Under the pieces are notes generated by a model. The model saw nothing but the letters and a program-made list of their open reading frames with translations. It was not told the DNA's origin and did no database searches. Made by a program: the position numbers and the translations under genes. From Bryum argenteum (taxonomy: Eukaryota > Streptophyta > Bryopsida > Bryales > Bryaceae), in assembly GCA_037043015.1 (NCBI GenBank), contig CM073323.1, positions 23,340,758-23,404,757 of the forward strand: a stretch of 64,000 nt of DNA, written 5' to 3'. Below are positions 25,080-52,593 of this stretch, in pieces (within the stretch, counting starts at the first letter, position 1; each line of letters starts with the position of its first letter).

Positions 25080-25735
25080 AAAGGAGTGCAAATTATAAAG
25101 AGAGGCGCCCACCCCCTCCCTTTGGTTAAACAAATCAAGTGCAAATTTTAAAAGAGGGTGGCCATGTTTCCACCCCCTTCAAATTCAAAAAAATTGTAGG
25201 TGTATAAATTTTAAAGGAGGTGGGCAAGTTTCCACCCCCCTTCAAATTTTAAAAAACAAATGCGTAAATTTTGAAGGGGGGTGGGCATGTTTTCACCCCT
25301 TTAAATTTAAAAAACAAAAGTATAAATTTTAAAAGGGGTGGGATGTTTCCACTCCCTTTACATTTTAAAAAATAAAAGTTTAAATTTTAAAGGAAGGTGG
25401 ACATGTTTCCACCCATATTCAAGTTTAATAAACAAAAGTGTAAATTTTAAAGGGGGGTGAGCATGTTTCCACCCCCCTTCAAATTCTACAAAACAAATGT
25501 GTAAATTTTAATGGGGGGGGGCATGTTTCCACCTCCTTTCAAATTTTAAAAAATAAAAGTGAAAATCTTAAAGAGTGGAAGGCCCACTTCTTTTAAATAA
25601 GGGGTTATAAATTAAAAATTATAAAAGAGAGTGGACATGTTCCCACCCCCTCCTTTATTGATTAAAAACAATCGAGTGCAAACTTTAAAGAGGGTGGGCA
25701 TGTTCCCACCCTCTTCAAATTTGAAAAGATATTAG
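25080..25735. repeat. Tandem array of about 60-bp hairpin-forming repeats, array 1
   Basis: About eleven diverged units of 58-61 bases. Each has a G-rich arm (ggggtgggcatg) followed by a C-rich arm (tttccacccccttc), so each unit can fold on itself, separated by 'aaattttaaaaaacaaaagt'. A single extra unit is at about 26575-26650. A related array lies at 29165-30060. These units lack coding frames. Confidence 0.9.
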
Positions 25736-29160: not shown

Positions 29161-29164
29161 TTTG

Positions 29165-30060
29165 GGATGGAGTGAGCACATGCCCACTTTTTTCATTTAG
29201 TTCAAATTTTCTAATGAGGTTGGAATGGGGTGAACACATGCCCACCCTCTTCATCAAGGTCAAATTTTTCTTATAAGGTTGGAATGGGGTACGCACATGC
29301 CCACCCTCTACATCAAAGTCAAATTTTTCTTACAAGTTTGAAATGGGGTGGGCACATGCTTACCCCCTTCTTTCAATTAAGTTTTTAATCTCACATTAGA
29401 AGGGGTGGGCACATACCCACCTCCTTCCTCAAGATCAAATTTTTCTTAGAAGTTTGGAATGGGATGGGCACATACCCACTTTCTTCCTCAAGGTCAAATT
29501 TTTCTTAGAAGTTTGGAATGGGGTGGGCACATGCCCACCCTCTTCATTAAATGTTTTTTTCATCTCTTTAGAAGCGGTTGTAACATGTTGTCCCCTTCTT
29601 CGATTTAATTTTTATTGTCACATTAGAAGGGGTTGTAACATGTTGTCCCCTTCTTCAAATTAATTTTTATCGTCACATTAGAAGGGGTTGTAACATGTTG
29701 TCCCCTTCTTCAATTTAATTTTTATCCTCACATTAGAAGGGGTTGTAACATGTTGTCTCCTTCTTCAATTTAATTTTTATCCTCACATTAGAAGGGGTTG
29801 TAACATGTTGTCCTCTTTTTTGATTTAATTTTTTATCGTCACATTAGAAGGGGGTGGGCACATACCCACACTCCCTTGATCAAAGTCAAATTTTTTTTAT
29901 AAGTTTGGATTGGTGGGCACATGCCCACCCCCTCCATGTATTTATTTTTTTCTTCACTTTTGGAGGGGTAAGTATATGCCCACATCCTTCATCAACTAGA
30001 GTTTTTTTTCTCTTAAATTTGGAAGAGAATGAGCACATCCATATTTGTGATGAATCAATT
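29165..30060. repeat. Tandem array of about 60-bp repeats, array 2
   Basis: Two alternating sub-families. Units around 29165-29560 and 29845-30060 carry 'ggggtgggcacatgcccacc', a self-complementary core. The middle (about 29565-29845) has five units with 'gaaggggttgtaacatgttg' followed by 'tccccttcttc'. Spacing is about 60 bases. The core resembles the hairpin core of array 1 (25080-25735), so the two arrays are probably related. Confidence 0.9.
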
Positions 30061-30339: not shown

Positions 30340-33300
30340 AATGGAATTTGGTGTAGAATGTCTCATAAGGTTGGAAGTGATTTGAAGGTTGTAGAGGTTT
30401 AATCATCTTCTGAAGATGAAGTATGTGAAATCATCATGCGTCACTCGAAACAAGATCCTCCTCTGAGTTACCTCATGAAGCAATGCAATATTATGAGGTT
30501 TGTGGACCTGACACCTATAAAATGTACGGGTTTGCCAAAAGTTGTTGAGTGGTGGGCAAAATTAAATGCTGCTTAGTAGAGTCTTTGCGAGAATTTATCT
30601 ATCGATGCTTCATTGCTTGATCAAGTTGAGCTTGAAAGATTGCGTATTCACATGACCGAATACAAACTGTATCTCAATGGAATTGGAAATGCACCAGAAA
30701 ATTTGCTTGAAATTGTAAAATTCGGGCATTCTTTATTGCTAATCTCCAAATTCGAAGAACGAGATGTTGAAGAATTTCGTACACTCGTTCCTCTTGTCAC
30801 TCCTATACAGAAAAAGAAGGGTTCACGGACTTCTACAACTCAACGCGACAACAATTTACAAACATTAAATGTTGCACTATCGTTGTATGATATTGAGGAA
30901 CACTCAGAACCATCTATTCACGTACGATCAAAAACAACCGACTTGTTTCTGTTGGGCAATCTTTGCATACAACGGCAAAGAACGATCTGATTCCCTTGCT
31001 TACTACCGATGAAGTTGAGATGCAATTCATATTTGGGAAGGACTTTTGTTTTACTGTGGAAATTGGAAAGTTGATACCACCCTCTGATCCGTTTGTAAAT
31101 TAACGGATTTTGAATATCCAAAATGCAGAATTTTTTTATCAATGGATGAAATCTCTTCATGTTTTGGAAATGCATATGTTGACATTACGGCCCATGGAGT
31201 ATGTAGCGCCTAAAAATGTCAATGGAGAAAACGTGCAGGCTTATGTTTTTAAAAACTGCAGAGATTTTCTTAAATGTATTAATGAAATACCTGGAAATAA
31301 GTTCGTAGAGAAAAGAGACGTGATTCTTCCACTCATTACTTGGGAACTGGTAGATGGGCAACATATTCTATATGCTTGTCAAGAATTGGCTTCATTGGAC
31401 CGTACGTGTGGGAATCTCTCTGAGGAAACCTTTAAAAAAATCTTTGTGCAATGCCGATACAAGTGGTGGTTTTTTATGAAAATTTCAAGTATCTTGTGGT
31501 TTCTAGTAAGCGAAATGAAGAATCTACTACGCAAAAATACCATAGTACAGTCGGAGAGACATTGGAAAAAATTCGAAGTGTTTGGACAAAATTCCAATGT
31601 CCAAGTCCCTTCGAAGATGAAGATATTGAGAAGAGGCGGCAATTTCTGCAATGTCTACCTAGCGTTACTCGTATGAAATCAGATATCAAGGACACCAATA
31701 TTATGTCAATGAAAAAATTGAACGTGACATATCGAGACTGGTTGTTTATTGCTACTGTATCAAGGACACCAATATTATGTCAATGAAAAAATTGAATGTG
31801 ACATATCGAGACTGGTTGTTTATTGCTACTGCATCAAGGACACAATGGACGGCAATGAAGACCATGTGTGATGCTTATGACCAAGGATTCACTTTCTATT
31901 GTGAAAAAGACAAAAAAGAAGAGCTCAAGACGAGTGGAAAGAAATCGACTACACATGAACGTAAACGGATGTCAATTGGTTGGTTAAAACCACTGAAAGG
32001 AACCAGTCCAATAGACTTTATTCAATTATGTGAAGCTGCAATTGTAGATTCAAGAGGCAAAGATCAAAGAATCTATTTTGATGCTCATCCGAATCTTTCT
32101 TTAACAAATTTGTTGCAAGCATGGTCAGAAAAGACCAAAATTTGTTTGGGAGTTCACAATACTTTGAAGTGGTTGGATGCAGAGGCTGCAGGTGGTGTTA
32201 CTGATGAGAGAAATTGGTTTATGAGGAGCGTTGAGAAATTTGGAGACAATCGAACCTTTGATTTTTTTGGAAGAGATGCGACAAATGAATTTCGGAAAAG
32301 TTGAGTGTCTGTAAAAGCTATAACCCGATTTGATACTATGTTGAAGAATGAGACATTTATCCCTACCAAGGTCTTCAATCATTTCACATTGATTATAGAA
32401 GGAAAATTGGGTTTTTTTTTGCAAGTGAGAAGGATTTTTTTTAAGAAATTGAGGGGTTGTGGAGTTTTGAGTTTGAGTATGTTGGACTGCAAGGTCGGAC
32501 TAGAAATAAAAGTAAAAGTTGGAGGTTGTTTATCTCAAGAAATACAAGGAAAATTTGCACACCTTGTGTTGTGGATGTTGGATTGTAGAAATGGGCCTAG
32601 TGGAGGTTTTTGGTCCGAGGAGGAATATAAAGACATAGTAAACATGATTGAGACTTGGATGTGTAATACAGAATGCTGGAACGCTATATTTATATTGCCA
32701 GCCGGAAAAACTGCAAAAGTTGTGATTCGTTTGCTAAATATTCCAGCAGAATCAGGTTGGACTATTATTACAGGTACTTATGTATTTGCTCCACAATCGG
32801 GCGCAAAAGGTCAAGTGATAGAAGGAGGGGTGGCTATAGTGGAAAATTATACACCAATGGGGCCCATTATTAATGTAATGCAATATCCTCAAACGGCCGA
32901 TGTGACGGAGAATTTTGCCGAAGGTGTGAAAATTTGTGGTTCAGTATTCATGGAGCCTACAGTTGGTTGAGACTTGTGTACAAAGTACCACAAGAACCGT
33001 TGCCCAAGGATTGTGCATGAGATTATCAAAATTTTATTTTCGTCATGAGAAATAGATGATTGTGGCTATTGGATTTACGCATATGACACACGGATTATAT
33101 GGTCAAACGAAAGAACTTGAACTATTTGAGCATGATGAAAATATGATAATATGGGTTCGAAGGTGGAAAGAAAAAGCAGTTGATGGGTTGGTTGGTGATG
33201 AAGGTGAAGAACCACTATGGAAGAATCCTCCGATGGGTCCAACTGGAGATTTCACCAAATCTGATGATGGTGATGACCATTCGGAGTCTACAACAGATTC

Positions 33301-33637
33301 TCATGGTTTTGAATATGAAGATAATGATAGACTTGGCGGTCCTCGAAAGAGAATGCGTATGGAAGTTTCATTATCTAAGGGGAAAGAAAAATTTGGAACA
33401 CATTTGAGTGAAGACAATGAGTCTATGGATTTTTCAAGTCCTAATACTTATCATGTTCCGCCCATGCAAGAAATATCACAACTGAACGAAGATGGCTATT
33501 ATTATAATGTCCTCTTAGATCGTTGGAATGACGGCATGACATGGTACATTCGGGAAGAAATTGCGAGTGATATTATAGGTGGAAAACCTACGTATAAGTA
33601 TATTGCTTCAGATATTCGAGAACTTCAAAACAAATAA
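30340..33637 (+). pseudogene. Decayed ParB-like domain / possible methyltransferase-like gene
   Basis: A long coding relic with shifts near 30950, 31450 and 31760, stops near 30571, 31100 and 32302, and further breaks up to 33056. It shows the ParB/sulfiredoxin-like order: VEIGKLIPPSDP near 31050, then VDGQHILYACQEL at about 31350, in place of the usual DGxHRxxAA. A mid region (TYRDWLFIATAS to about 32300) resembles no family I know. The C-terminal part (32580-33640) has EEEYKDIVNMIETW, a V-V-I-R and ITGTYVFAP segment, and TKELELFEHDENM, which can be lined up with the last methyltransferase-like motif of the 44.5-49.3 kb gene. ParB-like is moderate; methyltransferase is tentative. It appears intronless. 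Confidence 0.5.
31685..31832. repeat. 74-bp tandem duplication inside the ParB-like relic
   Basis: The unit starting 'atcaaggacaccaatatt' at 31685 is repeated exactly from 31759, with one difference (aacgtg versus aatgtg). 74 is not a multiple of three, so it shifts the frame; the upstream frame runs into copy 1 and the downstream frame out of copy 2. Confidence 0.95.
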
Positions 33638-36292: not shown

Positions 36293-36465
36293 ATGGCATT
36301 GAGTCCACAGTCCACTAGTGAAGATGCATTGTTAGCATCAGATGAAGGCATACTCTATAACAACGCTTTGGTAGAAGATGAGAGAATGGGATCTGCTAGT
36401 GACAACTCTAGTGCGGAGGAGGAGCTGATTGGAGAACAAGCTCTCGATTATACTCAGTTCGAGAG
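36293..36465 (+). pseudogene. N-terminal part of the pogo-like element's ORF, interrupted by the MULE
   Basis: Starts at ATG 36293 (MALSPQSTSED...) and reads an acidic Ser/Glu-rich stretch to ALDYTQFE, where the nested MULE begins. The same frame picks up on the other side, at the second copy of the 9-base target duplication (50288), with the codons for F-E-R followed by VLEGGWRRRSGG and a stop at 50400-50402. This continuity across 13.8 kb is the best evidence for the nested insertion. A one-base shift then links toward the transposase frame at about 50415. Its role is unknown. Confidence 0.75.
36457..36465 (+). repeat. Target-site duplication, left copy
   Basis: GTTCGAGAG, identical to 50288-50296. 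The identity extends two more Gs into the element (11 bases in all), so the exact border within the G run is ambiguous. Length fits Mutator-like elements (8-11 bases). Confidence 0.8.
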
Positions 36466-36483
36466 GGGACGTTGCTACCGTGT

Positions 36484-36511
36484 GAGCGGTGAGCGGTGAG
36501 CGGTGAGCGGT
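36484..36511 (+). repeat. Subterminal GAGCGGT array, left end of the MULE
   Basis: Four perfect tandem heptamers (36484, 36491, 36498, 36505) sit 18 bases inside the left border. The right end carries the same heptamer in inverted orientation. Such arrays are candidate transposase-binding sites. Confidence 0.9.
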
Positions 36512-36933
36512 AAGATTTAGAATTTTTAGGGCTGAGTTTGTATTTTTAGTAAAAATATTTCTAAAAATAGTTATTTTTTTATAAAAAGAGAATAATTTTC
36601 GAATATTCTTGGGAATATTCGAATATTCTAGACTTATCACCGTGGATTTAATGACCCAAACCCGTGGAAATAAGGCTTAAATTCCCTGAATTTGTGAGAC
36701 TTGAGCTACAAAACTCGACAGTAAATCACAATTTTTTAAATGTGAAGAGGTTTTTAAGGTAATATTTCTAAGTGAATAGTACTCCGAGTTAGACAAATTG
36801 GCAAGGTTTGCTGTACATGTAGATACTAATATAATAATTTATAATAAGTTGAGAAAAAATATCACATATAGTGTGGAGCACCCAATCATAAGACTAACAT
36901 ATAGCGTATGTAGATGAGGAGATATAAGGCATT

Positions 36934-39900
36934 CTAATCTATAGCATGGTCTAGGATTCCTCCCTCCGTAATCTTCTTCACCTCGTTGAAACTAAGAGTG
37001 GCCGCGTGGATGAAGAGATCAGCATCCGGATCAAATTTGCAAACCAATACCGTGATGAAGTATAGGTGCTTGCACGGTCGATATGGATCTCTCCGTCCTA
37101 ACGAAGAAATTGTTTTCTTGAACACTGGGCATGAGCAATCCGGGAATTTACTAATTGAAAGTCTATAAACTGCATCCGAATCGGACTCCAAATCTATGAT
37201 ACACCCAAAACCAGGCTGCGGGATCATGGTCACCCTCAGAATTTTGGCCTGCATTGACGTGGCAGACTCAATATTCTTCATGTGCTTTGAAGTCATAGCT
37301 GGAATGCGTTTCATGTTCTTCGATCTTCTGGACCTAGGGAACACGTCCGGCTTCTCCGGGACTGGAATATGGGACAAGTCTCTTGGTGGGGCAGCATTAT
37401 TGAAAGTGCGGTTCGTAGGAAGCTGTTCTTTTTGTGGTAGTCGAAAGCCCGCATTCTCCAACGCCTCCATCTCATCACGTGTAAGGTTAGTCCCTATCTT
37501 TACAGGCCATATTGAAGGAATAGGGGGTCTGTCCTGGCTTAGAGAGAATGGTTCAATCCACTTGCGACGATGACCCTTCACACACCTCTCAATATCATCT
37601 GCACAAAAAAAGAACTGATCAATTTTTCTTGGCCCCTCTTGAGGGCGTTGCCATACTCCGGTGTAAGTTGGAGCTGCGGTCGCCTTCCCCTTCTGAATAA
37701 TTCGTGAGTCACATCTTTTTTTACTCTTTCGCATGATACCCCAACATGCCTTGGCAGAATTCTCCCTCAAACGGGCAATGTGCCACAGCCTCTCGTCTAC
37801 TTTAGTCTCCGAACAATGGTCACACGTTCAATACTAGGTCCAGCAAAAGTGGATGGTATTGTCCGTAACTCTTCAACTTCATCCTCCTCATGGATAGTAC
37901 TCAGATTTTCAGTACAAGCTCGGGTAACCCTTCTTCCAATTCGAGGACGTGAGTAGCTCAAGGTGTCAGGTCTGTGCGTTTCATCATCACTCAATCGGAA
38001 CATCGCCCTTACGTTTCTTGGATCCGAACACCTCGGCCCCCTCAAGGTGGGCGTCTCGGTACAAATCTTTTCCGCTCCCGGATAGTCGAAACGCCTTGTG
38101 AGGCCTGATGGATCGCCGGTTCGTTGAGCTTTATGGGCAAGACGAAGTAAGAGTTCTTCGGATGTTGGTCCACTACCACCCTTGCCACCTCCGTTGAAGT
38201 CGTGGTAACCGACAACTTGGAGGAAAGCACGAACATAATCATCAACAAATACACAACGCATGTCCCCACCCTTGTTGCCGGGGACGCTTGCAACCATTTG
38301 TTATGGATAGATTCCGCAAGGTTACATGAAGGCATCTCCGCCAACTCCTCTGCTGAATATTTATTTTCCTGCAAGGTGCAAAAACAAATGACTTAGTAAC
38401 AAAAAAGTTGATCACAATATCCATGGCGAGTTAGACTTGCGTCACAAAAAGTCCGATCTAAAAATAGATTATTATTATTTTTTAAATGATTAATATTGAT
38501 AAAGATTAAGAAAGCAGAATATTCTATACTAAAAAAGTAAATATATTTTACAGAATTATTAGACATCAATTCACGTGTATATAATAGCTACAATGGTGTG
38601 GACTCACCAATTCCATGAAGCCACCCCACTGCCTATATCGGAAATGCCAGAATGCAAGCCAGTGTTCGAGGTGACTTAATCCAACTTCGGAGGTGGCTTG
38701 CGCCGACGCCCACCACGCTCGGATCGCCCAGTATCTTGTCTCCGCCTCAGCCATGGTGCGTGCATCTTTGTATTGCTTACAAAGATGTCGATGTTGATCC
38801 TGCAACTCGTGCACGATGTACTGTTTGGTGTGTTTCTCTAGGGATTGCGTCCAATGGAAGTAGCAAGTCCGCTCGTGGCCTTCCATGGGCACTTTAGGGT
38901 CTCCGGAGCCATAAATGATCCGCACAGCGTTCCAGTTGGCCTGCGCACTGTCGGCCATGAACCCTTGAAACTGCGGCGCTTCCACTCCGTTCGCCTACGA
39001 CGTGGTTAAGATTCTTCCGAAGACGATTTGAGCATCCCCGTCTTGACCGAAATCACAAAGATGCAATAGTTAGAATGCGGCATTTTTGAGTCATAAACGT
39101 GGCATGCCATGGTCGTCCGAGCTTTGACACGCTTGACGCGGTCGAACATCATCCAAGCATGTGACAAGTCGCCCCCGGGGCTGATATTTACGAACAAGGT
39201 CAACACCGCTTCCGGGGCCGACCTCGGACATCTTGAAAATGAACACTTTGTCACTTTCATCTCCCTGGCCCGGGAACTGGTTACGTTGGATGTAAGCCCA
39301 GTTGCTGAGGCCTCGAAGTTTGGTGATCCCATCAAGAACACCGTATCTCAAGCAAGTGCTTAAAAGTGGTAATACGATTCCCGACGCCGGGAGAGTTCAC
39401 TTTTTTACACCGATCGAAGATAGGTTCTAGCTCCTGGAGGGTGAGCTTAGAGGTTACAGGGTCACCTTCTTCACGGAGAAGTAAGTTTCCGAGTAAGTCC
39501 TTGCTAGCCTCCATGACTATTTTGGATGTGGTAGCTTGTGGGTTACGTTCTACGTGCTCCTCTATTAACTCATCAATCATTTTACGTGCACATCTGTAGT
39601 CTCCGACTTTAACAGGGATGTTCGTGCGTATCGATATGCACACATGCCCTCTCTTGACTCTCTTCTCCGAATACGTAGAAAATTTTAGCAGGGCATAAAG
39701 CAACACAAATGGGAGGTTCTTTGCAGATCTTACAGACCAGTGATGACGAAGGAGGAGGCGCTTGGCCGACCGAGAAGGGGTCCTTGGTAAAGCCCTCGAA
39801 CTCCACCTCATTAACTTGTGATCTACGGTCAGGTCTTAGCAAGAATCCGCACTTGCCATTGTGGCATTGAAGATGACCTACACAGTTAGAGTAGCGGAAA

Positions 39901-40830
39901 GACAAACCGAGGTTGTTACTGATGTTAGTAGTCATTGTCCTGGTCCACACATGGCCGTCGTATCTTTTGTCCATCCCTTCCATAGATTTGGCTACCTTGG
40001 CAGCAGTAGTTGGTAGAATAGGAGGGAGAATGTAGAGGACATCACCATTGAAAGTGTGAGGCAGGAAAGAGACGCTATGAGTTCGGATGGAATGGAAATC
40101 TATTTTTTGAGTATAGTTTTGTTGCGAGACATACTACCTAGTCTACGGAGCGAGGAAAGAATGTTTTTGGGTTTTACGAATTTGGACGCGGGAAGAGAAA
40201 CGGGGGTGGTTCTAAGACTGTGTTCAGAACCTGAGGATGGAAGAGGCAGATTCGATGATATTCGACGGGACTTGATGGACGATTTTCTTTCATCTTCAGA
40301 TGAATCCGAAATATCGATTCGAACTTGGAGTCCGGGTTCGACTTTGACACGAGCAAGAACTGGTACGACAAAGGGAGATGGTAGAAGAACTACGGGGAGT
40401 GAGGAGGACGGTGGAGGCGTTCATGACGGACTCACAAACCATAGAGTCGATATCGACCGGGCGTAGCTTATACATTTTAGAGTGACTCTCTAGGTCGACC
40501 TGGTTCGACAAGGACGGAGTCTTCGGACAAGCCTAGTGTTTGGATCCAAGACATGTTTCTCTAACCACAGAGAGGACTCATCAAACCCAAAACGAATTGC
40601 TAGCCAAGACGGAGTGACTTCACCACTCCATCCACCCCCGGAGGAATGCGATATAGGGGACTTAAGTCTTCGACCTAATGGCAATGATGTCCGGCGGGAG
40701 GCAAGGCAAATGGAGGAAGCCATGTGGTACGGGGCGACGAAGACAACATCAACAAGTGCGCAATGAAAGAGAGTCCGAGGTGCGTTTTGAATGTTCAAAT
40801 ACAACAAATTGTCAGAGAATGTTTGCATAC
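36934..40830 (-). pseudogene. MULE transposase with SWIM zinc finger, decayed
   Basis: Read on the minus strand from about 40830 down. N-terminal pieces (40.8-40.2 kb) include PVDIDSMVCES. A zinc-rich DNA-binding block follows (39983-39609, CVGHLQCHNGKCGF and CKICKEPP), then GTDEHP-like HTHEHP text. The MULE catalytic core shows ACHVYDSK (first Asp) near 39100 and GFMADSAQANWNAVR (second Asp) near 38970, then ERTCYFHWTQSLEKH. A true intron lies at 38369-38607. Downstream are PSCNLAESIHNKWLQ, FVDDYVRAFLQVV and a C-terminal SWIM finger (CSCPVFKK...PCKHLYF) before the stop at 36934. Frame breaks near 39600, 39180, 38998 (stop), 38250 and 37790 show this copy is dead. Confidence 0.85.
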
Positions 40831-41164
40831 GTATTGAATACTTATTAAACGTAATTTCTTAAAGAAGACGTATATACCCGATACTGATTCGTGAGCATGA
40901 TGAATTGAAAGCACATTACCTATAATACTTAAATTAGCTGAACTGACATTATTGCATTAAATACTGACGATTAAAAATATTAGATTCGTTGATATATTAA
41001 GTAGGTGTAGAAGGTAAATTGACGGCCGCAGTCATTGTCAGAGATATAGTTGGATAATAGATGCATTCAGTAGTTAGCTTAGTAGGGGTTGTCAGACACG
41101 GTGAAAGCACGATGTTAGGGAATACGCGATGACTGATTAGGGTTTCTTAGCCGCATAGTGGAAC

Positions 41165-41173
41165 TTATATAAT
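41165..41173 (+). promoter_or_regulatory. Candidate TATA box for plus-strand MULE genes
   Basis: 'cttatataatgg' lies about 105 bases before an ATG at 41271 and about 140 before the ATG at 41309. It is oriented away from the minus-strand transposase, so the transposase and cargo may share a divergent promoter region (about 40830-41270). Confidence 0.45.
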
Positions 41174-41270
41174 GGAGTTCACACTCATAGATCGACCTCT
41201 TCAATTGCAGCTCGAGAAAGCTTGGGCTTGTTAAGTGCAACGTGACAGAAGTTATTTCATTGCAAGCAGC

Positions 41271-41932
41271 ATGGACGAGACCGCTAGCGGTAGTGAGAGA
41301 GAAAGGAAATGGGTCGAGGAAGGAAGAAGAAGCGGAGGGGTGGCACGAAGTTCACTAACTCTAAAGCACTGAGACGTAGTGCTTTGCGGAAGCGCGATGA
41401 GATAAGCTGTACTAGCGAAGATCAAGAGCCTGATGGGTACGATATCTTGATCGACGATGATGTGCTACCGCCATTTAGGCGGACTATTAAGATGCGATCG
41501 TTGAATCTCGACAGTGTCCCGGAGAGTCTCCCGACGGACGAAGCTGAAGAAGAGCCGGAGGAAGGGGCGTACAAGCGAGAATAGGACGTCTTTCGAGATT
41601 GATTGCGTGGATGGCGATGACCGGGGTGGGTGTAGACTCTACATATGAGGTAATGAAGTTCTGTATGTTATCAACTTGTGGATAATCGTGAATAATAAAC
41701 TAGACTCAAATATGTATATGGTTTAATATAAACATGTGATGACTTCAGGGACGTAGAGGATCGGAAGAGGAAGACAATCTATCTGGAGATCAAACAGTGG
41801 TGTTTGAGGAGATAAGAGTCAATGATTCGCACGAGAGAGCAGCGAAGCCTCTTCTCATCGGAAAACACATTATGATACAACTCGATGGATTTGACACAAG
41901 TGCGGAAAGAATTAGAGGAGGTACATGAGAAA
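41271..41932 (+). CDS. Small charged protein gene of the MULE (unknown)
   Basis: Two overlapping starts: ATG 41271 (MDETASGSERERK, 33 codons) and ATG 41309, which reads 91 residues: a basic head GRGRKKKRRGGTK, then PFRRTIKMRSLNLD and an acidic tail. A second exon-like block at about 41749-41930, with acceptor 'cttcag' and donor 'gaggtacat', reads acidic EEEDNLSGDQ and IMIQLDGFDTS. I do not recognise either part. They could be the first exons of the ParB-like gene 2.6 kb downstream or a separate accessory protein. The frame at 41309-41584 is intact. Confidence 0.4.
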
Positions 41933-42255
41933 CCTTACTTCTTGGTTTATTGGGAGGACTTAGGGTTGATTAATTATACAATCAACGAGAGTTCATTATT
42001 CGGTTCGATGTAGTATGCATTTTTGCTATGATATACTTTGAAGATATTTGTGCACTCAAGACAAGGTCAGTATTTTGTACTTGCGGGTGCTTGTATCTAT
42101 AGGTCCCAGTTACGTACATGAGGGTACTTAGTTTGTACTTCCGAAGAAAATGACTACTGCGAATAATATTGATGTTCTTTCCACTTTATGCCTATACTTA
42201 CGCCTGTGTAAAAAAATGAGTGATATCTCATGTGAATATGTAGCACAATTTTTAC
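41933..42255. other. Short spacer inside the MULE
   Basis: Between the small charged-protein gene and the minisatellite; no gene recognised. Confidence 0.5.
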
Positions 42256-43022
42256 GAACCGGGTAGGTACGGATGAGTAAGATCGGGCTGGGTACGGTCG
42301 GCTCGGGTAGGGTCAGTGTTCAAACCGAGTATTGGGAGGGTAATGACCGGGTAGGCCCACTGTTATGACCGGGAAGGCCCACTGTTATGACCGGGTAGGC
42401 CCACTGTTATGACCGGGTAAGGTCGGTGTATGTGCAAGGGTACCGGGAAGGACCGGGGTACGTACCATGTACCGGCGAGGGCCAGGGTTAGGACCGGGTA
42501 GAGCCGAACTAAGTACCAGTTCACCGGGCAAGACCGAAGTAAGTAGCAAGAACCGGGTTGGGCCAGGGTAAGGTCAGGGTAGGTCCGGGTAAGTACCATG
42601 GTACCGGGCAGGACCGAAGTAAGTAGCAAGTACCGGGTTGGGCCAGGGTAATGACCGGGTAGGGCCGTGGTAAGTACCAGGGTACCAGACAGGACCAAGG
42701 TATATACCATGTACCGGGTAGGCCAGAGTTAGGACCGATAAGATCCGGGGAAAGTGCAGGGTAGCGGGCAAGACCAAGGTATGTAACAAGTTCCGGGTAG
42801 GCCAGGGTCCGGACCGGCAAGGACCGGGGTATGTGCCAGGGTACCGGGCAGGACCAAGGTAGGTTCGATGTACGTGGTAGGCCAGAGTTCGGACCGGTAA
42901 GGGCCTGTTAACTGCCAGGTATACGGGAAGGCCAGGGTTAGGACCGGTGAGGGCCGGGATGCGCGCCAGGGAACCGGCAGGACCATGGTAGCTACGGGAT
43001 ACCGGGTAGGACCGGGTGTCAA
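42256..43022. repeat. GACCGGGTA-type minisatellite inside the MULE
   Basis: Starts with three near-perfect 22-bp units (gaccgggtaggcccactgttat at 42345, 42367 and 42389), then about eight diverged units of roughly 80 bases built from 'accgggcaggacc', 'aagtaccagggt' and 'gggccagggtta'. Composition (GC-rich, no TAA/TGA stops on some frames) creates long fortuitous frames on the minus strand. It lies between the two gene blocks of the element. Confidence 0.9.
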
Positions 43023-44563
43023 TAGGGAATCTCGCCGGACCGGTGGAGAAGGTGCGCCGATGGCAGTCCGCATTATTGGCTGTCGCGCATCGATCGTATC
43101 AGCAGTCCGCATTGAAGCCAGTTCCCCGTCCGCAGTCCGCCGTAGGAACGGCATTGGTCGCATTATCTTCACTTCCATCGGCGCGCTGCATTCTAGCTTC
43201 TAAGAGATCCATCGGAATCAAGTGGCACACCATCGTGCGCAACCCATTTACTGATGCGTTGTGGAGGCGATCCCTTCGGGGACGACGTTCGTGAATCTGG
43301 CCAGAGAATGGTCTCTCTGCCGCACTGGCGATGTTTCCAAAGGAGGATACGACAATCGGCATTCAATAATCCTAGCTGTTGATTCCCGATCTCTGTCGCC
43401 TTGCTCAGTGGGTAGTTGGAAGCGTGACATATTTAGAATTGATGAGGAATCTACGCTGACAAAAGCAGAATCGCTATGGCTGTTAGTGCTGAAAGCAGAA
43501 TGCCGAACTCACTGGAGAAATTGATGAATTTTTCCACACACTCGATTTTAGGACCGTTGTTGGTTTACTTGTGTGTTTTTCGAATTGAAGGAGAGAGGTG
43601 CTGAGTTCAGAGAGGAAGGAAAAATGGCGGACGAACTTTGCGAACAGAGAACTCTCATCGAGAGGAGGTGAAGTCGAACTGCAAGGAGAGAAGCAAGTTG
43701 TGCAGCCAGAAGAAGAGCAAATCATGAAGGATCAGCAGAATGTGAGTTCTCAATCATCGGAATCAAGTTTCTTTTCTTCCATTTACAGGACGGATCCATA
43801 TTGGGGCCAAACGATGAAGACTCGGGGCGGGTTAGAATTCTCCAACTCCAGAAGCATTAAGGTATGATCTACAGAAAACCCTACAGAGGACAAGTCAGTA
43901 TCAAATCCGACCATTTCATGTTATTTTTTGCTTCCCTGAATTTCTATCATACTTTTCTTGAGGATCTGTGCGTTTGTATTCAATCTATCAACGTGTTGTT
44001 GCGTTGGGCCATCTCGGGAATGCCCTGGCGTGATCCTCAAGCTTCCGCAGTGCAGGCCATCGGCAATGAAGCAAGAGGCTGAGCCCCTGGCATGAGCTCG
44101 GTGAACCGCCAGTGGCCGAGTCTCAGCCGTGTCGACTTGTCTGTGAGCCCGGCTAGCTTCTGAGCCTCAAAGGGGTCGGTGGTGTCGTGGTGACGGTCTC
44201 AAGGTTGCTGTAGCCCTGGGATTGTTGGGGGGTGGCACCTGCTGTTGACCCCGGTGTGGTGTTGGCTGATTGATGTTTTTTGAGAAGTGGTCGGATTCGC
44301 TCCAGACTTGCGTCGACGCAAGTCTGGAGCAAATCCGACCATTTCATGCTATTTTTTGCTTCATGGGGTATTCATCATATTTATCTTGAGGATCTGTGTG
44401 TTGGTCTATTATTTTTGGATTAAATGATCGTGCTTGCCTCCCTTAAGATGCTCTTTCGAGATGCGGGATTGTTGCTCCATTAAATCTCGAGTGCATAGTT
44501 TTACTTTTTATTTCATTTGTATAAGTATATTTTTCGTTCTAATAGTTTTCATTTCTATGGCAG
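43023..44563. other. Interior MULE region upstream of the cargo gene
   Basis: Holds an upstream frame with ATG 43624 (MADELCEQ...) that does not clearly join the cargo, a duplicated phrase ('aatccgaccatttcatg.tattttttgctt' through 'cttgaggatctgtg') at about 43908-43976 and about 44332-44400, and a long palindrome. It may hold the promoter and 5' exons of the cargo gene, but no start is certain. Confidence 0.4.
44289..44340. repeat. 52-bp near-perfect palindrome
   Basis: Two 26-base arms meet at 44314/44315, centre 'gcgtcgacgc', with one mismatch (ttcgctcc versus ggagcaaa). The right arm continues directly into the duplicated phrase 'aatccgaccatttcatg'. Confidence 0.95.
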
Positions 44564-47500
44564 GATGCACGAAAGCACGCACGTGTTGTTGAAGAAGAAG
44601 AATCGGACGCGGATAGCGATCTTTCCGCTTTGAGGGTCCATGTCCAAGCTTATGTAGAGTCTCGTCGATTAGCAATACCCCTGTCCGCTGTTCCCGAAAC
44701 GCCCTCTCCTGCAACTCCTGTCCGTTGTACTTTTAGTGACGGCGTTGATCGGATTGCACGAGGGACTTTCAAAAGACCGAATTATTATGCAGAGGCGAAG
44801 GCGCGTCGTGCCCAAGCGATAGCAATGGCTAGAATTGAACCACGTCGTTCACCACGACTTTCAACCAAATGTACATCGAAATGGATATATGCTTAGAGTA
44901 TATGAAATATATGTGAACCTGTGCCGTATGTGACAAATATATAAATCTAATGATATCTAATTTTCATTCTCATAATTTCTTATTTTCTTGTGCGATGTTG
45001 TACTTGGTTTTTGGATTGTCAGATGATAGCATGTGAAGTGCCTGACCTTCGAGATGGACAAGACGATTCTCTCACTCCAAACAATATAGCCATGTCGGCG
45101 CACGATGCCCATGGTGGGAGTCCCGATGATAACACGATTCAGGCATTACAACAAATTGTTGGAGTTCCAGACGATGCAGTGACAGCTGACATTCATCTCG
45201 GAACTGAAGATCTGCATTTACCGTCTCGAGACCATGACGGACTTCAGTCTTTTTCGGATGATGAAGAAACTACATTGCCAGGAGGTGTCAACGTTGGAAT
45301 CATTCACATGCCTCAACATTTGCAAAACAAGGACCCTGAGTGGAGTGCGAACGAGATGCGCATGCTCCACAAGAGTGATTCCATAGCTATCATCAACAAG
45401 GTTACGCTACAAACCTCACAAGAAGTCTCGTATGCTAATTCCGCTTTGCCGCCTCGTTTGTTATCCAAAGGTTCGCCCGATCTCAGAACAAGACGTCAGA
45501 AAACTTGAGAACGAGTTCAACAAGGGATACCGCGAAGGCGATCGGGTAATGTACGTGTCTCCCTTTGACAGAAAAGGCCGTGAAAAGATAGTTGACATTG
45601 AAGACGAACTCTGGAAGAACCCGCTTTGGAAAGCCGCAAATGAAGAGTTCGAGAGTACGCTGCGGATCGATCCGCATCTTTGTAACCTTTCGACAAATAT
45701 TTCTATGTCTACGAAGGTAACCACCGTGTTACAGCCTGGATGCGCCATATCGAGAGGTATCACAAGAATGATCCCTCGTGGTACATTTCGGTTGATTGCA
45801 TCGTACTCGATGCCCGTGGTGAGAGCAATCTCCTCCTCGATGCTATGAACGACATTAACTGGTAAGTGAATGTCGCATTTTTTTATAATAAATATCTTTC
45901 ATGATTTCGTCATATACCATTCCCCTAATCTTTTATTCTATGTTGTAGGTCCACCGAACATGATCACGTCGAAGATAGTTTATGTGCGAAACTCCAACGC
46001 ATGAGGAAGTTTGGCAAGTTGAAACTCAAGATTTCAAGGACCTCATCTCTCCCGAAGATTACAGGATCTCGTAAGAACGCCAAAGCAAAAAGGAGACTTG
46101 GTATCCCGTCACAATAGACGTTTTGTGAAATTCCTATACGCGGTAAGCTCACTACATATGAGCCGGACTCCTCTTCATCATTTTTTTATAAATCAACTTC
46201 TAATTTGTTTTCCGGTTGTCATATAGCGGAAGTTAGCGAAAACATCCGATGAAGCTGAAGCTACGTACTACGCCACGGTTCCAAAAGACAAACAAACTGG
46301 ACTCGTGTATGGAGTGCCATGGACAATGCAATCAAGGCTGAAATCAAGTCAATACGTGGGAAGAACTTTGACAAGATGGTCGTCATGGCAAATATCAAAT
46401 TGGGAAACAATTTGCGAAAGAGGTATTGATGGCTTGGTTCATCGTTTTACATTCAGATATTTTCATTTATGTTCTATTGCTCAAATCAAAACTGTGAGTC
46501 TGATGTGCAGATTAATTCTCATTACAGCCAAAACCTGAAACCCGACATGACGCTTGATCGCTTACACATGGTCGCCACTACCAATGTTAACTTTGATTTC
46601 AAAGCTAAGTGGTCGCAGTGGTGGAACTCATCAAACGAAGATCGACGTTCGATTCGCTTTCAAGATCGCCCCCTATGAAAGATAAAGCATTGGTTGCATT
46701 TCTACATCGTGCTTCTCTTTGGGGCGCAGGGTAACTTGCTTACATATTCCGGGATTACAAAATTTGAGTTTTTATGTTACTTGGAATATTAACGTATTTC
46801 CCGTATTCTCGGCTGAGCAATCACTAGAAAGTGAATTGCAGAACTGCAGACAACGAGAACCTCAACATTGAGTGGTCTAGTGTTGTCCAAAAGCCATCGG
46901 CCTATATCGAGAAGTGGAGGTTAATCTTATGGGAGAAGGCATTCGAAAACTATCTTGCTCCAAACGCAAGTCCAAAGTTCATTAAAGGCTCGGATCTTCG
47001 TAGAATTACCGGAGGCAAAGCTACAATTAAGCGGCTTGTATTCCGGTATGTATTCTTTTTCCTATAAAATTTTATAGATATTCCCGCAACATATTCAATT
47101 ACCCCTATCTAATTTGTTTACTTTCATTTAGGTACTTAAAACAAGAGCTCGTTGCCAAGGGAGCATTACCTTCGTTCTCCATTCCCATGGAATTTGAGGA
47201 CATTTCAAAGACGAATGATCCCCGCAGCTTTTTTTTCCTCGGTAACAAGAGCGGTTCACTAACTCTCAATTGACGACCGGTGGATGGTTCCTTGAGTGCG
47301 GCGACAACTACGTCTACAAGGAGGAGAAGCATCTCTTTCAAACCCGCTTCAAACCCACCGACTCAAGACCGATGGACATTGACGACGATGACGATGACGA
47401 CCTCTCCATTTTACCGTATGGACCGATCCAATCTCTTCTCCTTCTTCACCAGCCCAGCGCCCAAGTCTCGTGCAACCGGAGAAGCGACGCAATGCGGTTG

Positions 47501-49306
47501 CGGAACCCGTAGTGGATCTCCAAAGCAAGAATCGGAAGAAATCGCCCCTCCCGTAAGACATTGCAGAGCCGTAAGATGCCGATCGACTCGAGGCTTGGGC
47601 GGAAGCAACAAATGCGAATCGACGCAATGCAAGATCGACTCACTTTTCTACAGTGGACTTACGAATGCGGGATCCCCTCCTCAATCGCTCACCGTGGACC
47701 ATAACTCACAGCGAGCTCCCGTCGCATCGGCCGAACCATTGTTTCCAAACGCCCTCTTCCGAAACCCAATCACATTGGTAGCGGCTCGTCGTCAAAAATT
47801 TCGGTGACTCGCCAATCTATCTCGAGAAGGGCAACATTGGAGACTTGGTTCATCGATCGTCAAGACCGCAAAATGGGATTCGCAAATCCTCGATATCGTC
47901 GAGCACATTAGAAAGGTATTATTTCTTACATTAGTCATTTATAATCTCCTACTCATAAATCTTACTTGTAAATCTATTTGCCACTTTCTAATATTTGATT
48001 TGTATCTCGAGTTGGCAAAGACCGTAAGTACCGTGTTCGGCGATGGAGTATGAACCCAAGCATCCAGAATTGATCTCATTTTTGCGGATGCTCCCGAAAA
48101 CTTGCCTGTTCCGGTGTGTCTCCAACAAAATTCCATCCTGGAATCGGCGTGACAAAACCTACTTTGAGAGCCTCTTCGTGTTTGCCGCTTATCATTTGAC
48201 GGACGTTGGAGCCATACTTCTCATGCATCCAAAATGTCGTAGAATCGAGCGTACTCGATTCTCGAGTCCGCAACATATGGTTTTTCGCCTGTTCGAGACC
48301 GGTGGGGATATAATTCCCTTCCTATGGCCTCTACCGTACTCCAAACCGAAAGAGGTACGTAATGATTCCAATTTCAAATTTCACGATTCACGATTATTTC
48401 CGACTATGCTTCTATGTTAACGTATATTTACTTGTGTTTTTGCAGACTCACCGCTTCCACATCAAAGTCTATGTTCGTAAAGAGTATGTTTCAAGTTCCG
48501 CACTCGGCAAGTCGCACACGCATACGGGGGTGTGGCAATCGTACCTGATGAGGAAGACCACCTCAGTAACTTTGCAGAGAAAGAAACATTACGTTATCGT
48601 CCGGACGGTACGCCGTGGCGTGGCTCACGAGAGAAGGACCCCTCCTTCATTCAGTGTTTCGTTGATTGTCTCACGGACGACGGAGGTATAGTCTTCGATT
48701 GGAGCGCTAGTACAGGTAATGTTTCCGTAAACACTACATTCGAGTTTGTTTATACACACTTCGCTTTTCTAACGTGGGCTTCTGTTTTTGTAGGTGCATC
48801 TGTAATTGCTTGCGCGCGCTCCAACCGACACCTCATCGCCATGGAACCTGACGAAGAAATCTTTGATGGTGTGCTAGCCGATTACAAGAACGGTCCTCCC
48901 GGTGATGAAGAAAGTGGAGAATCTGCCCCTCCCGCGGATTATGACTCTGACGAACCGGTCGTGAAGAAGCCACGAAAGTTCATTGGTGCGTAATTCCATC
49001 TTGTATTCTTTTTCTGGATTTTTTATTTAGCACTTACAAATCTGTTGGACTGACTTTCTTTGCAATTTTAGGATCGCAGGTCTGAAGGAGCGATTGACTC
49101 GCAACGCTCATCTCTACAAGAGCCCTCCATCAAAATTCACCCTACCATCGTACGCTGAGCGACTTGCTCAAGAGTTTGTTCAAGCTCCATCTCCCATACT
49201 CTCTGACACTCCACGTCGACGTTATAGCAATAGTGTGCTTAAGTTTATAGACTTTGAGGCTGATCAGTGTGATCAGCACTTTAATGGTTCAACACCTTCT
49301 GCCTAG
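44564..49306 (+). pseudogene. ParB-like domain plus beta-class-like DNA methyltransferase gene, intron-containing, decayed
   Basis: Multi-exon coding region with clear splice pairs, for example 45861/45949, 46142/46227, 47045/47132 and 48715/48794. The first part is acidic. At 45460-45840 comes a ParB/Srx-like domain: RPISEQDVRKLENEF, then FYVYEGNHRVTAW (the ParB-type GxHRxxA motif). Unassigned exons follow (45.95-47.8 kb). A methyltransferase-like module then begins with IDLIFADAPE near 48070, where N4/N6 enzymes have (S/D)PP(Y/W), and ends with GGIVFDWSASTGASVI and ACARSNRHLIAMEPDEEIF, which matches the motif-I region (DxFxGxGTT, then an acidic E) of beta-class enzymes, in permuted order. 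Frame breaks at about 45465, 45685 and elsewhere, and degenerate catalytic residues, suggest a relic. Domain calls are by motif only. Confidence 0.5.
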
Positions 49307-50221
49307 AGTGTGATTTGTTTTCTGATAGGTACTGGACATGGTACTAGAGTATTCGTTTACCTCGATCTATTACTGCTATAGCATGTATTTGTGTTTTTCA
49401 ATATATATGGTTTTATATATTTATGTATTGTGATTATCGTTTATAGCTTAAGCTACACTAAGTGTTTCAAGTATCACTTTAAGTATCTCACTACAATGTA
49501 ATCTAAAGCCATGCTTGATCAGAATGAAGACGTCAGCCCTAATTTTGATGTAACTTCTTAAACTCCAGTTTCGATGCACCGGTGTATGTAAATGCTTAAG
49601 TTCTAAACTAAATGCAGACTAAAAGTTTGAGAAGGTCTTTTTTTATTTCCATTGGAGTGATTGATTTTTGCCAATGTTGGTAGGGGCTATAGTGCGGTGT
49701 TTGTATAGCTCGGGATAGCGACTTTAAGACGCAGTGCAAACGCTCAAACGAGGCCGAGGAGAATCGAACTCGGACCACCGCAATGCCACGTGAATGTCTT
49801 TTCGTACATCTTACAAGGAGACACGGAACGACGACGTGTAGTGATAATTTTCGGATAATATATGCCAAGCATTTACATATAATTCTAACAAGTGCAATAC
49901 GCTATTGATGACGTCGGCCCTAATTAGTCTCAGAAAGCTTATTGTTGATAAATTAAACTTATTGATTACCTAAATGGATCATCCCAAATTTCGGTTTATA
50001 TTTTGGATATGATTTGAATTGTGTTGGTTACACATGATGATGCTAGTCCATAATTTAATTAACTTTTATCTAAACTTACAAGTGTGGATAATTTTTGAAA
50101 TATTGTGTGACCTATGTCCACGGTTTTGGGTACTTTTATGCCTAAAAATGACCATTTCAAAAATTATAAACCACCCATTCCATGGTAATAGGGCCATTAA
50201 CTTTAAATTTTTTTTTTCCTT
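49307..50221. other. 3' region of the MULE
   Basis: After the cargo stop at 49306 no gene is seen. A reverse-strand B-box-like text (gagttcgattctcc) lies near 49757-49770, without a full tRNA. The last 500 bases are AT-rich up to the subterminal array. Confidence 0.5.
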
Positions 50222-50270
50222 ACCGCTCAAACTTTACCGCTCACCGCTCAGCGCTCACCGCTCAACGCTC
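50222..50270 (-). repeat. Subterminal GAGCGGT array, right end of the MULE
   Basis: On the plus strand as ACCGCTC: one unit at 50222, then after a 7-base spacer units at 50236, 50243, 50250 (AGCGCTC), 50257 and 50264 (AACGCTC). It is the inverted counterpart of the left array. Confidence 0.9.
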
Positions 50271-50287
50271 ACACCGGTGGTTTCCCC

Positions 50288-50296
50288 GTTCGAGAG
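50288..50296 (+). repeat. Target-site duplication, right copy
   Basis: GTTCGAGAG, the second copy of 36457-36465, next to the right end of the MULE. Confidence 0.8.
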
Positions 50297-50414
50297 GGTC
50301 CTCGAAGGTGGGTGGAGACGGAGAAGCGGAGGCACTCGCAGTGGAAGCGGGGGGCAGCAGTCGGTGTTGAACACAAGTACCGCACTCCAAAGAAGGCAAT
50401 GATATCGCACAGAG

Positions 50415-52593
50415 GCCAGTGCGACTGTTCACTAACAATCTTGCAGGTCGAAGTAGCAGTCGAGGAGGCGGGAGATTAGCAGCCTCTCGTTGTCGTCATC
50501 ACGCACAGCGGGACTCCTTGTCCGTGGAGGACATCACTGCAATCGGGTCCCGCACAGGACCAAAGGCTGCCTTGACCCGTCTTCTCCTCAAATGAGCCCA
50601 CAAGATGGAATCCTCGGCGAGGCCCTACGGCAGGCAAAGCTCGCACCGAGACGCAGCCTTCCTCAAAGAGAGCCGCACATCAGAACACCGCCTCGGCTGG
50701 AACGGAACCACAAATGCGAGTAGACGCCCTCGCGTTCGACGTACGAATGTGCAAGGGAAATGGACAAACAAACAATTACGGGCTGCAATGGACGCAGTTG
50801 ATGGAGGTATGAGTATGAAGAAGGCTTCAGATACTTTTCACATACCTTACTCATAATTTCGTGAATGGTGTTATGGCATTAGGACCAGTCGAAAAAGGGG
50901 GCCAACTGCAGTATTGACGCCACTAGAAGAAAAACAACTGGTTGATTACTGTCTACGAATGTGTGAGATAGGACAAGGTCTAACACCTTCTTTGTTGAGG
51001 CTCAAAGTATATGACATTACTAAATCTCGAGCTACTCCCTTCCGCGATGGCATTTCGGGGGGCGGCTGGATGCGTTGGTGGAGGCACCGTCATCCGGAGC
51101 TGACCCTACGAATGTCTCAAGCGCTTGAGACAGCACGTGCACAGGGCTTATGTGCAGAGAATGTGCAAAGTTTTTATGACAACCTCCGGAGCTTACTCAC
51201 CTTGCATGAGTATAGCGCAGACAGGATTTGGAATTGCAACGAGTCGGGTGCGCAAGCTGGGAGAAGTGGTAGAGGAGTTGTCATTGCTTGAAGAGGCGCC
51301 CGCCATGTCCATTCACTTATGCCAGACCAGCGAGAGTGGCTGAGCGTATTGGTCTGCGTAAATGCAGATGGAATTAGCATTCCATCTTTCTATGTTTTTC
51401 GAGGAACACGGTTCAGAGAAAATTACATTGAGAGATGTGAGCCCGGGGCTACTATGGCAATGCAACCCGGGGCTTGGATGACAACATACCTATTTAGTGC
51501 ATGGTTGTCACACTTTATTGAAAGTGTGCAAGGCGGTGGAGGGATTTCAGCTGAGCATAGGCACCTCCTCATACTCGACGGACATAATTCACATTGCACA
51601 GTGGATGTCGTACGCGAGGCACGGGCTGCAGGTCTGGACATCCTCACACTGCCGTCACATACATTACATGCCTTACAACCATTGGATGTTAGTGTTTTCA
51701 AGTCATTTAAACAAAATTTCAGGGCTTATAGAGATTTTTGGACGGCAAGGAACTTGTCTCAAGCTGCAACTAAGTCTACACTGGCTCGGTGGGTTCACTT
51801 GGTTTTGAGGAAAGCACTCACGGTGGATAATATAAGGAGCGGGTTCAGAGGCACCGGAATCTACCCTCTGAACCCAGAGGCAGTTGCGGCTCACCTGGCC
51901 CCTTCAACAATTTTTGGTGACTCCCCAGACACAGCTGCCGAGAGCTTAACCGCACTAGGCGATGAGCTTGGAGGGCTTGAGCGGAACGAGGAAGCAGCAA
52001 CGAATGAAAATCACAACCAGGTGGAAGAAGACTTACTGCCTGAGGTCATGGATGATGAGGCTCAGCAGCGGATGCAGAGGGAGTTTGACGAGCTTCCCGA
52101 CTCCAATGTCTCGCATTATTTCGTAGTTGCTGATCCTGCAGATACGAGCGAAGAAGCCCGTGAGATAACGGGCATTGAGAATGCAGAGAACGAGCCTCAG
52201 TCCATTACGAGGTTTTTAACTCTCCCTACCAACACAGCGCGAGCGACCTCACGACGAAGGGATCCGCTGTTAGATTTCACGAAGTCTATTATTCTCACGT
52301 CAGACGAGTACAGTGCCGCAGTCGAGAGACTTAACGACGCAAAACAATTAGTTGCGAGAGAAAAGGAAAGACTGCACACCGAAAAAGAGGAGTCTCGCCA
52401 GCGGAAGGCTGGAGAGAAAGAGGTCCGTGCTCCGGAAGTCGCCGACGCCAGAGCTCGCCGCGCAGAGGAAAAGGTACAGGCAGCGCGCTTGAAAGAGCTC
52501 CGAGCTACCGAAGCACAGCGGCGCGAGCGGCGAAAGCAGCAGAGAAGGCGAGGACTGCATCAATACGGCGCAGGGGCAGGGCGACTGAGATAA
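50415..52593 (+). pseudogene. pogo/Jerky-like DDE transposase, inactivated
   Basis: One frame from about 50415 to the stop at 52591-52593, with in-frame stops at 50593 (TGA), 50854 (TAA) and 51289 (TGA). A CENP-B-type helix-turn-helix region begins at GKWTNKQLRAAMDAV, with KKASDTFHIPYS and a second one near TPLEEKQLVDYCLRM. The DDE_1 catalytic domain shows IWNCNESG (the usual first Asp is Asn here), LLILDGHNSH (second Asp) and LQPLDVSVFKSFKQ (third Asp), then GTGIYPLNPEA. The C-terminus (52300-52590) is charged, Glu/Arg/Lys rich, probably coiled coil. The stops and Asn change make it inactive. The family is confident. Confidence 0.9.

Follow-up and report, generated by a model that had tools for sequence, protein, structure and literature searches.

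A putative MULE-like transposon family of the moss Bryum argenteum with an accessory gene of ParB-like and methyltransferase-derived parts

We analysed a 64,000-nucleotide stretch of the Bryum argenteum genome (NCBI GenBank assembly GCA_037043015.1, contig CM073323.1, forward-strand positions 23,340,758 to 23,404,757; C3:23340758-23404757 in our searches of the 258.8-Mb, 25-contig genome), hereafter the window. It holds an element with inverted GAGCGGT-rich ends, a broken transposase gene and, on the opposite strand, an intron-containing cargo gene that is predicted to combine a ParB-like domain with a domain of probable DNA methyltransferase ancestry. Three sister copies were fetched for comparison: E1 (C1:287300-302000), E2, and E3. 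The features of the element, in window coordinates, are:

36457-36467: left target site duplication GTTCGAGAGGG, an exact 11-bp match to 50288-50298
36468-50287: whole element, 13,820 bp, the interval bounded by the target duplications
36480-36525, plus strand: left inverted-repeat arm, a GAGCGGT array paired with 50229-50274
36934-40858, minus strand: MULE-like transposase gene in broken pieces (open reading frames; sister copies)
41297-41584, plus strand: conserved coding stretch with a basic RKKKRRGG cluster, either a candidate 5' cargo exon or a small open reading frame of its own
42343-42919: tandem-repeat arrays of the fast-changing centre (Tandem Repeats Finder)
44546-44896, plus strand: open frame that closes with a stop and has equivalents in E2 and E3, either an upstream exon or a separate reading frame (open reading frames)
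45023-45861, plus strand: cargo exon 1, acidic N-terminus and predicted ParB/sulfiredoxin-fold domain, frameshifted inside here (exon transfer; fold of relative P0004)
45716-45739, plus strand: GNHRVTAW motif of the ParB-like domain (genome-wide codon pattern)
45949-46142, plus strand: cargo exon 2 (exon transfer)
46227-46422, plus strand: cargo exon 3 (exon transfer)
46511-46730, plus strand: cargo exon 4 (exon transfer)
46813-47045, plus strand: cargo exon 5 (exon transfer)
47132-47915, plus strand: cargo exon 6, acidic and low-complexity linker (exon transfer)
48011-48354, plus strand: cargo exon 7, start of the methyltransferase-like domain (exon transfer; Ceratodon proteins)
48072-48098, plus strand: DLIFADAPE, at the position of catalytic motif IV, which is DPPY in active enzymes (profile alignment with phage methylases)
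48446-48715, plus strand: cargo exon 8, with DWSASTG of the intron-split motif I at its end (exon transfer; profile alignment)
48794-48985, plus strand: cargo exon 9, which completes motif I and contains the acidic E of LIAMEPDEE (exon transfer; profile alignment)
49080-49306, plus strand: cargo exon 10, C-terminal tail up to the stop (open reading frames; exon transfer; Ceratodon proteins)
50229-50274, minus strand: right inverted-repeat arm, a GAGCGGT/GAGCGTT array paired with 36480-36525
50288-50298: right target site duplication GTTCGAGAGGG, an exact 11-bp match to 36457-36467

The initial annotation had placed an element of about 13.8 kb between inverted GAGCGGT ends, and this is what the borders delimit: the two 46-nt arms are 83% complementary and form terminal inverted repeats, and the target duplications it had reported are exact over 11 bp on both sides, although the element starts at 36468 and not at 36466, 2 bp earlier. 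MULE target duplications measure 8-11 bp and MULE terminal inverted repeats commonly hundreds of bp, according to the passages of PMC6446971 drawn on here; the duplication in the window lies within that range. With up to two mismatches allowed, GAGCGGTGAGCGG has seven matches in the window against 0.4 expected, and the 21-bp end pattern has 435+396 (overlapping) matches in the whole genome and none in the reversed control. E1 aligns to both halves of the window element, its main pieces at 85-88%, and its borders match; a target duplication of about 10 bp with one mismatch was read by eye from its printed flanks, where an exact-word search returned only a chance 7-mer. The same structure recurs at many loci, and a pure assembly artefact was therefore rejected.

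By eye the transposase shows a first-D region, a second-D region with CxxH, an E region, and a C-terminal CxC..CxH, a set that we take to fit MULE transposases; the last of these, SWIM-like, sits in the open reading frame 36934-37827. The Pfam SWIM match is sub-threshold (E 0.43; 10.6 bits, cut-off 19.6) and the Pfam MULE domain was not found in the transposase at E≤1, E1 included, so that support for the label MULE comes from the length of the duplication (11 bp), from the ends, and from motifs read by eye. The MULE/SWIM transposase first proposed remains a candidate on that basis. The transposase core has 1,346 candidates in the genome; the best 120, which were scored, are 85-100% identical, many with open frames of about 738 amino acids, and between E1 and E2 the core differs by 0.013 nonsynonymous (dN) and 0.245 synonymous (dS) substitutions per site.

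Exon edges of the cargo gene were set by eye on E3; alignment served to project them onto E1, E2, and the window. All internal edges have AG/GT in E1 and E3, and E2 has AA for AG at the exon-5 acceptor. The frame is continuous through the modelled exons of E1 and E2, and none of the three copies (0/3) is free of defects: in E1 a short patch at motif IV is frameshifted, and E3 has a 1-bp change in exon 6. Among 14 plus-strand methyltransferase loci, 6 are without a stop. The intron-containing gene predicted opposite the transposase is where the initial annotation had put it, the ParB exon ending at 45861; it is not intact at this locus, since indels disrupt most exons, and by this reading the window copy is a pseudogene. 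Our model joins the ParB and methyltransferase parts in a single protein, at least about 1,100 residues long. Three annotated proteins of the moss Ceratodon purpureus (P0001-P0003) match this model with 51-53% identity, beginning in exon 3 and continuing up to the stop. No organism other than Ceratodon was named for the cargo relatives found (one search scored 7,999 candidates). These relatives suggest that the arrangement extends beyond one species. One of the ParB-domain relatives, P0018 (KC19_VG030900), lies on a 110.5-Mb record, and the name of the gene indicates the V sex chromosome.

The codon pattern of GNHRVTAW has 279 matches in the genome and none in the control. Genome-wide, the ParB-exon pattern occurs in at least three nucleotide variants (GGTAACCAC.., GGGAATCAT.., GGCAATCAC..), which suggests several element lineages. 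The ParB-like domain, first proposed from its motif, has a ParB/sulfiredoxin fold in the predicted structure of relative P0004, a fold that would place it in the ParB/Srx superfamily. ParB partition proteins proper have a CTP-binding box of the GERRxRA type and hydrolyse CTP; at the position of this box most aligned relatives read EGNHR(V/L)TAW. ParB proteins attach to repeated sites and spread along DNA. Searches with the ParB family gave nothing useful against PDB profiles and only weak, scattered matches in Pfam; tblastn of the ParB part against phages found four records (best E 0.2), and in a negative comparison hhalign of the ParB family with phage methylases gave a probability of 0.5%. 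An NCBIfam search returned weak matches only.

For the methyltransferase part, profile comparisons support an ancestry among the beta-class DNA amino-methyltransferases, in which motif IV precedes motif I; the permuted tail suspected at the outset is thus supported, and with the predicted ParB fold both proposed domain types find a counterpart. Aligned by hhalign, the eight-row profile and the phage methylases share 183 columns (E 9e-10), a homology that spans the catalytic domain, with GIDLIIADAPEG paired with the DxPY motif. The four-row moss profile matched seven phage methylases at motif I over 53 columns (E 1e-6, score 51.6; maximum 25.6 in 100 shuffles, 18 with the reversed set), a match favoured by the choice of these seven from hits of the same query. 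The PHROG DNA methyltransferase profile phrog_3008, free of that bias, matches four of four members of the cargo alignment A1 (best E 2.5e-5) and three of the seven rows of A5. Each of the four A1 members also has a match to Pfam N6_N4_Mtase (PF01555) at E≤1, the best of them at 0.0024; for E2 the score is 12.8 bits, below the cut-off of 26.7. With tblastn, the methyltransferase part found 294 phage records at E≤10 (best E 2e-3); among the matches listed, 11 of 15 are named methylase or methyltransferase, the others being unannotated, gp10, or hypothetical. In a PDB profile search the first-ranked match was Tctex, a light chain of dynein (E 0.018), ahead of the N4C methyltransferase 8s9m (E 0.38) and DpnA (E 1); we took the Tctex resemblance as chance and did not use this search as support.

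Catalytic residues are another matter. The motif IV of active beta-class enzymes, (D/N/S)PP(Y/F/W), is absent from the cargo copies and relatives found: relatives have D-A/V-P-E/S in place of DPPY, and a motif-I glycine is S or A. Of DPPY, the D and the second P are retained, as is the acidic residue of LIALE. A loose motif-IV pattern has 228 matches in the genome, of which the 100 listed comprise 98 DAP and 2 DTP; the DPP form had none in a genome-wide pattern search, both patterns fixing neighbouring residues and so being blind to copies that differ there. Because the DPPY position reads DAP or DTP in these 100 copies and DPP was not matched, a DNA-modifying activity of the protein is doubtful.

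The cargo exons are nonetheless under purifying selection. The dN/dS ratio over exons 1-5 is 0.194 (E1-E2), 0.135 (E1-E3), and 0.157 (E2-E3), and that of exons 7-9 is 0.200 for E1-E2. At 25 of 30 ParB-exon loci, 268 of 276 pairs yielded a median of 0.092, a figure biased by the picking of these loci by protein score. Between E2 and E3 dS is 0.54 in exons 1-5 but 0.05 in exons 7-9, a contrast that suggests exchange between copies.

Cargo, transposase, and ends often travel together, as linkage counts above those of shifted controls indicate. The counts used the best 120 transposase matches, the best 150 of 1,087 ParB candidates plus the ParB exon of the window, and 129 listed methyltransferase places. 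Among these, 39 of 120 transposase copies have a divergent ParB exon at 3-16 kb, or 47 if methyltransferase exons are counted, and 2 of 120 have a wrongly arranged one; the shifted-position control has a mean of 0.57 and a maximum of 4. On C1:0-16.06 Mb, 100 listed end-pattern matches form 57 arrays (one or two matches per array), and 29 of the 57 lie where a cargo match predicts; the shifted control has a mean of 1.5 and a maximum of 27, the latter probably from a shift near zero. Of 69 ParB exons on C1:0-16 Mb, 7 have a left end and 4 both ends, and the right ends of 18 lie at 4.2-4.7 kb (12 exons) or 5.4-6.3 kb (6). That other copies with these ends would hold both genes is seen for many copies among the matches listed.

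The centre of the element, whose limits between the coding stretches were chosen by us, changes fast: window, E1, E2, and E3 share 26-320 bp per pair (blastn), and tandem repeats, which differ among the copies, cover 20, 47, 25, and 73% of it, respectively, against 0-30 bp within the cargo gene. To its left, the stretch 41297-41584 has a dS of 0.47 and a dN of 0.15 between E1 and E2 (simplified count); if it is a 5' exon, the repeat-rich centre would be intronic. The frame 44546-44896 has an acidic start and an RRSPRLS-type end, and its stop just precedes the ParB exon. In Arabidopsis VANDAL elements the target regions of VANC are rapidly diverging tandem repeats, as described in the portion of PMC10398659 used here; the parallel is suggestive only.

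Our best explanation, put forward tentatively as a whole, is that an autonomous family of MULE-like DNA transposons, of which the window element is a decayed member, persists with the help of a ParB-methyltransferase-derived accessory protein. The family would be moved by a DDE/SWIM-type transposase, with the accessory gene transcribed divergently; the protein would consist, in order, of a ParB/sulfiredoxin-fold domain, a middle region, a linker, and a beta-class methyltransferase-derived domain. The ParB-like domain would provide DNA or partner binding and might bind the DNA of the element itself, at the terminal GAGCGGT arrays or the central tandem repeats, while the former methyltransferase may have been kept as a DNA- or S-adenosylmethionine (SAM)-binding scaffold and not as a canonical methylase. 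The protein could then oppose host silencing, as VANC does for VANDAL elements, or act as a cofactor of transposition; we would rank anti-silencing first, the cofactor second, and active divergent methylation third. The early guess of a DNA-modifying or DNA-binding accessory thus keeps its second half as the best reading, the first having become doubtful with the replacement of DPPY.

Several results weigh against this explanation, besides the biased choice behind the motif-I match and the median dN/dS. Taken by itself, the motif-IV half is only just beyond chance on profile comparison (hhalign probability 5%, E 0.007; score 23.0, maximum 22.8 in 200 shuffles), the AlphaFold2 model of Ceratodon P0001, which includes the methyltransferase part (10 sequences), has a mean pLDDT (predicted local distance difference test) of 33, and altered motifs could still permit unusual methylation. 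In exons 7-9 the E2-E3 dN/dS rises to 0.353, at a dS of only 0.046. Among the matches listed, 81 of 120 transposase copies lack a ParB exon within range, 28 of 57 end arrays lack a cargo match in place, and only 18 of the 69 ParB exons have a right end that matches the pattern. Diverging repeats are not specific to anti-silencing. Finally, the three annotated Ceratodon proteins begin in exon 3, without the ParB exons, so that the two parts could belong to separate genes.

Of the alternatives, a possible but rather unlikely one makes the cargo a transposition cofactor that, bound to the GAGCGGT arrays of the two termini, helps to assemble or choose ends, leaving silencing unaffected. The presence of arrays at both ends, their co-occurrence with the cargo, and the affinity of ParB proteins for repeated sites speak for it, but the same arrays may be bound by the transposase. 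A divergent yet active methyltransferase, acting on N4-cytosine or N6-adenine and marking the transposon's own DNA, is an unlikely identity for the cargo: similarity spanning motif I and, weakly, motif IV, the retained D, P, and acidic residue, the purifying selection, and the predicted DNA methyltransferase of Ectocarpus (PMC12477816, passages used here) would fit, but copies and relatives found have D(A/V/T)P(E/S) where active enzymes have DPPY, and a motif-I glycine is S or A. We consider it improbable that the element belongs to another DNA-transposon superfamily. The Pfam results leave room for this, as does the Sola-1 nature of the ParB-methyltransferase carrier in the same part of PMC12477816; the 11-bp duplication, within the 8-11 bp given for MULEs in the cited portion of PMC6446971, and the motifs read by eye stand against it. 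Capture of host or bacterial DNA as a functionless passenger, in the manner of Pack-MULEs, would suit the decay of the window copy and the stops or indels in some others, and is very improbable in view of dN/dS values of 0.13-0.20 between diverged copies, an exon structure common to E1-E3, hundreds of motif matches, and the relatives in Ceratodon; we rejected it on the selection acting on the cargo. A wider formulation, possible but doubtful as it stands, would be that transposons of land plants made a ParB-methyltransferase of bacterial type into a sequence-guided anti-silencing factor without methylating activity, with a pseudo-methyltransferase as its core, which arose independently of VANC and is maintained in hundreds of copies. 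Purifying selection, together with the retention of DPP in none of 228 motif-IV pattern matches, separates carrying a methyltransferase from methylating; if the protein does oppose silencing, it would be a second route to a VANC-type effect. Its role is testable in a plant group with workable genetics.

Some neighbouring features deserve mention. About 1 kb to the right of the element lies a transposase reading frame (51292-52590, plus strand; Pfam DDE_1, E 3.7e-22), beside which the element inserted; with a helix-turn-helix-like stretch, seen by eye, ahead of it, this frame looks pogo/Tigger-like. Consecutive plus-strand frames at 30960-33634 (VDGQHILYA, DCRNGPSGGFW..AIFILPA) recall by eye a second, different ParB-like/methyltransferase-like arrangement; Pfam and PHROGs gave no ParB-like or methyltransferase-like match on them. 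Tandem arrays at 25137-25721 and 29151-29853 have units of 55-60 bp, some with inverted motifs of the GGGGTGGGCA...CCCACCC type. To the left of the E3 cargo gene, C6:17906000-17915900 holds long open frames that resemble by eye a Ty3/Gypsy-type retrotransposon.

Among known systems, the closest in description is the brown-algal Sola-1 transposon of PMC12477816, cited here for the passages drawn on, as are the other sources below. Its gene for a ParB plus DNA methyltransferase protein lies on the other strand from the transposase; further cases of the pairing, from green and red algae, are cited there, and the accessory genes are proposed to mark the DNA of their own element. Like Sola1-1_Ec32, a giant DNA transposon, our element would, in the model, combine a ParB-like and a DNA methyltransferase-type domain in about 1,100 amino acids, within a DNA transposon and opposite to the transposase; unlike it, the host element is MULE-like and from a moss. 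The Sola1-1_Ec32 enzyme, likened here by description, is predicted to make N4-methylcytosine (N4mC) or N6-methyladenine (N6mA), whereas the catalytic motif is replaced in ours. The Arabidopsis VANDAL MULEs with VANC share the combination of a MULE, a non-transposase accessory gene, and fast-diverging noncoding tandem repeats; the passages of PMC10398659 used here do not mention ParB, and VANC has an anti-silencing function there, whereas for our protein such a role is proposed. Fungal DNA transposons encoding TET/JBP also have an accessory enzyme related to DNA modification (PMC12730594), in their case a dioxygenase acting on methylated bases and not a methyltransferase relative. With the phage and bacterial beta-class enzymes (PF01555) the cargo shares motif order and profile similarity; it differs in the altered DPPY and motif-I glycine, the ParB-like partner, and its place in a eukaryotic transposon. 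The novelty first supposed for such cargo is thus qualified by the algal precedent and would hold for mosses and MULEs, for which our searches of the open-licence literature listed no case. What is known is the pairing of ParB and methyltransferase in algal transposons; what appears new is its presence in a MULE-like family of a moss, with a replaced catalytic motif.

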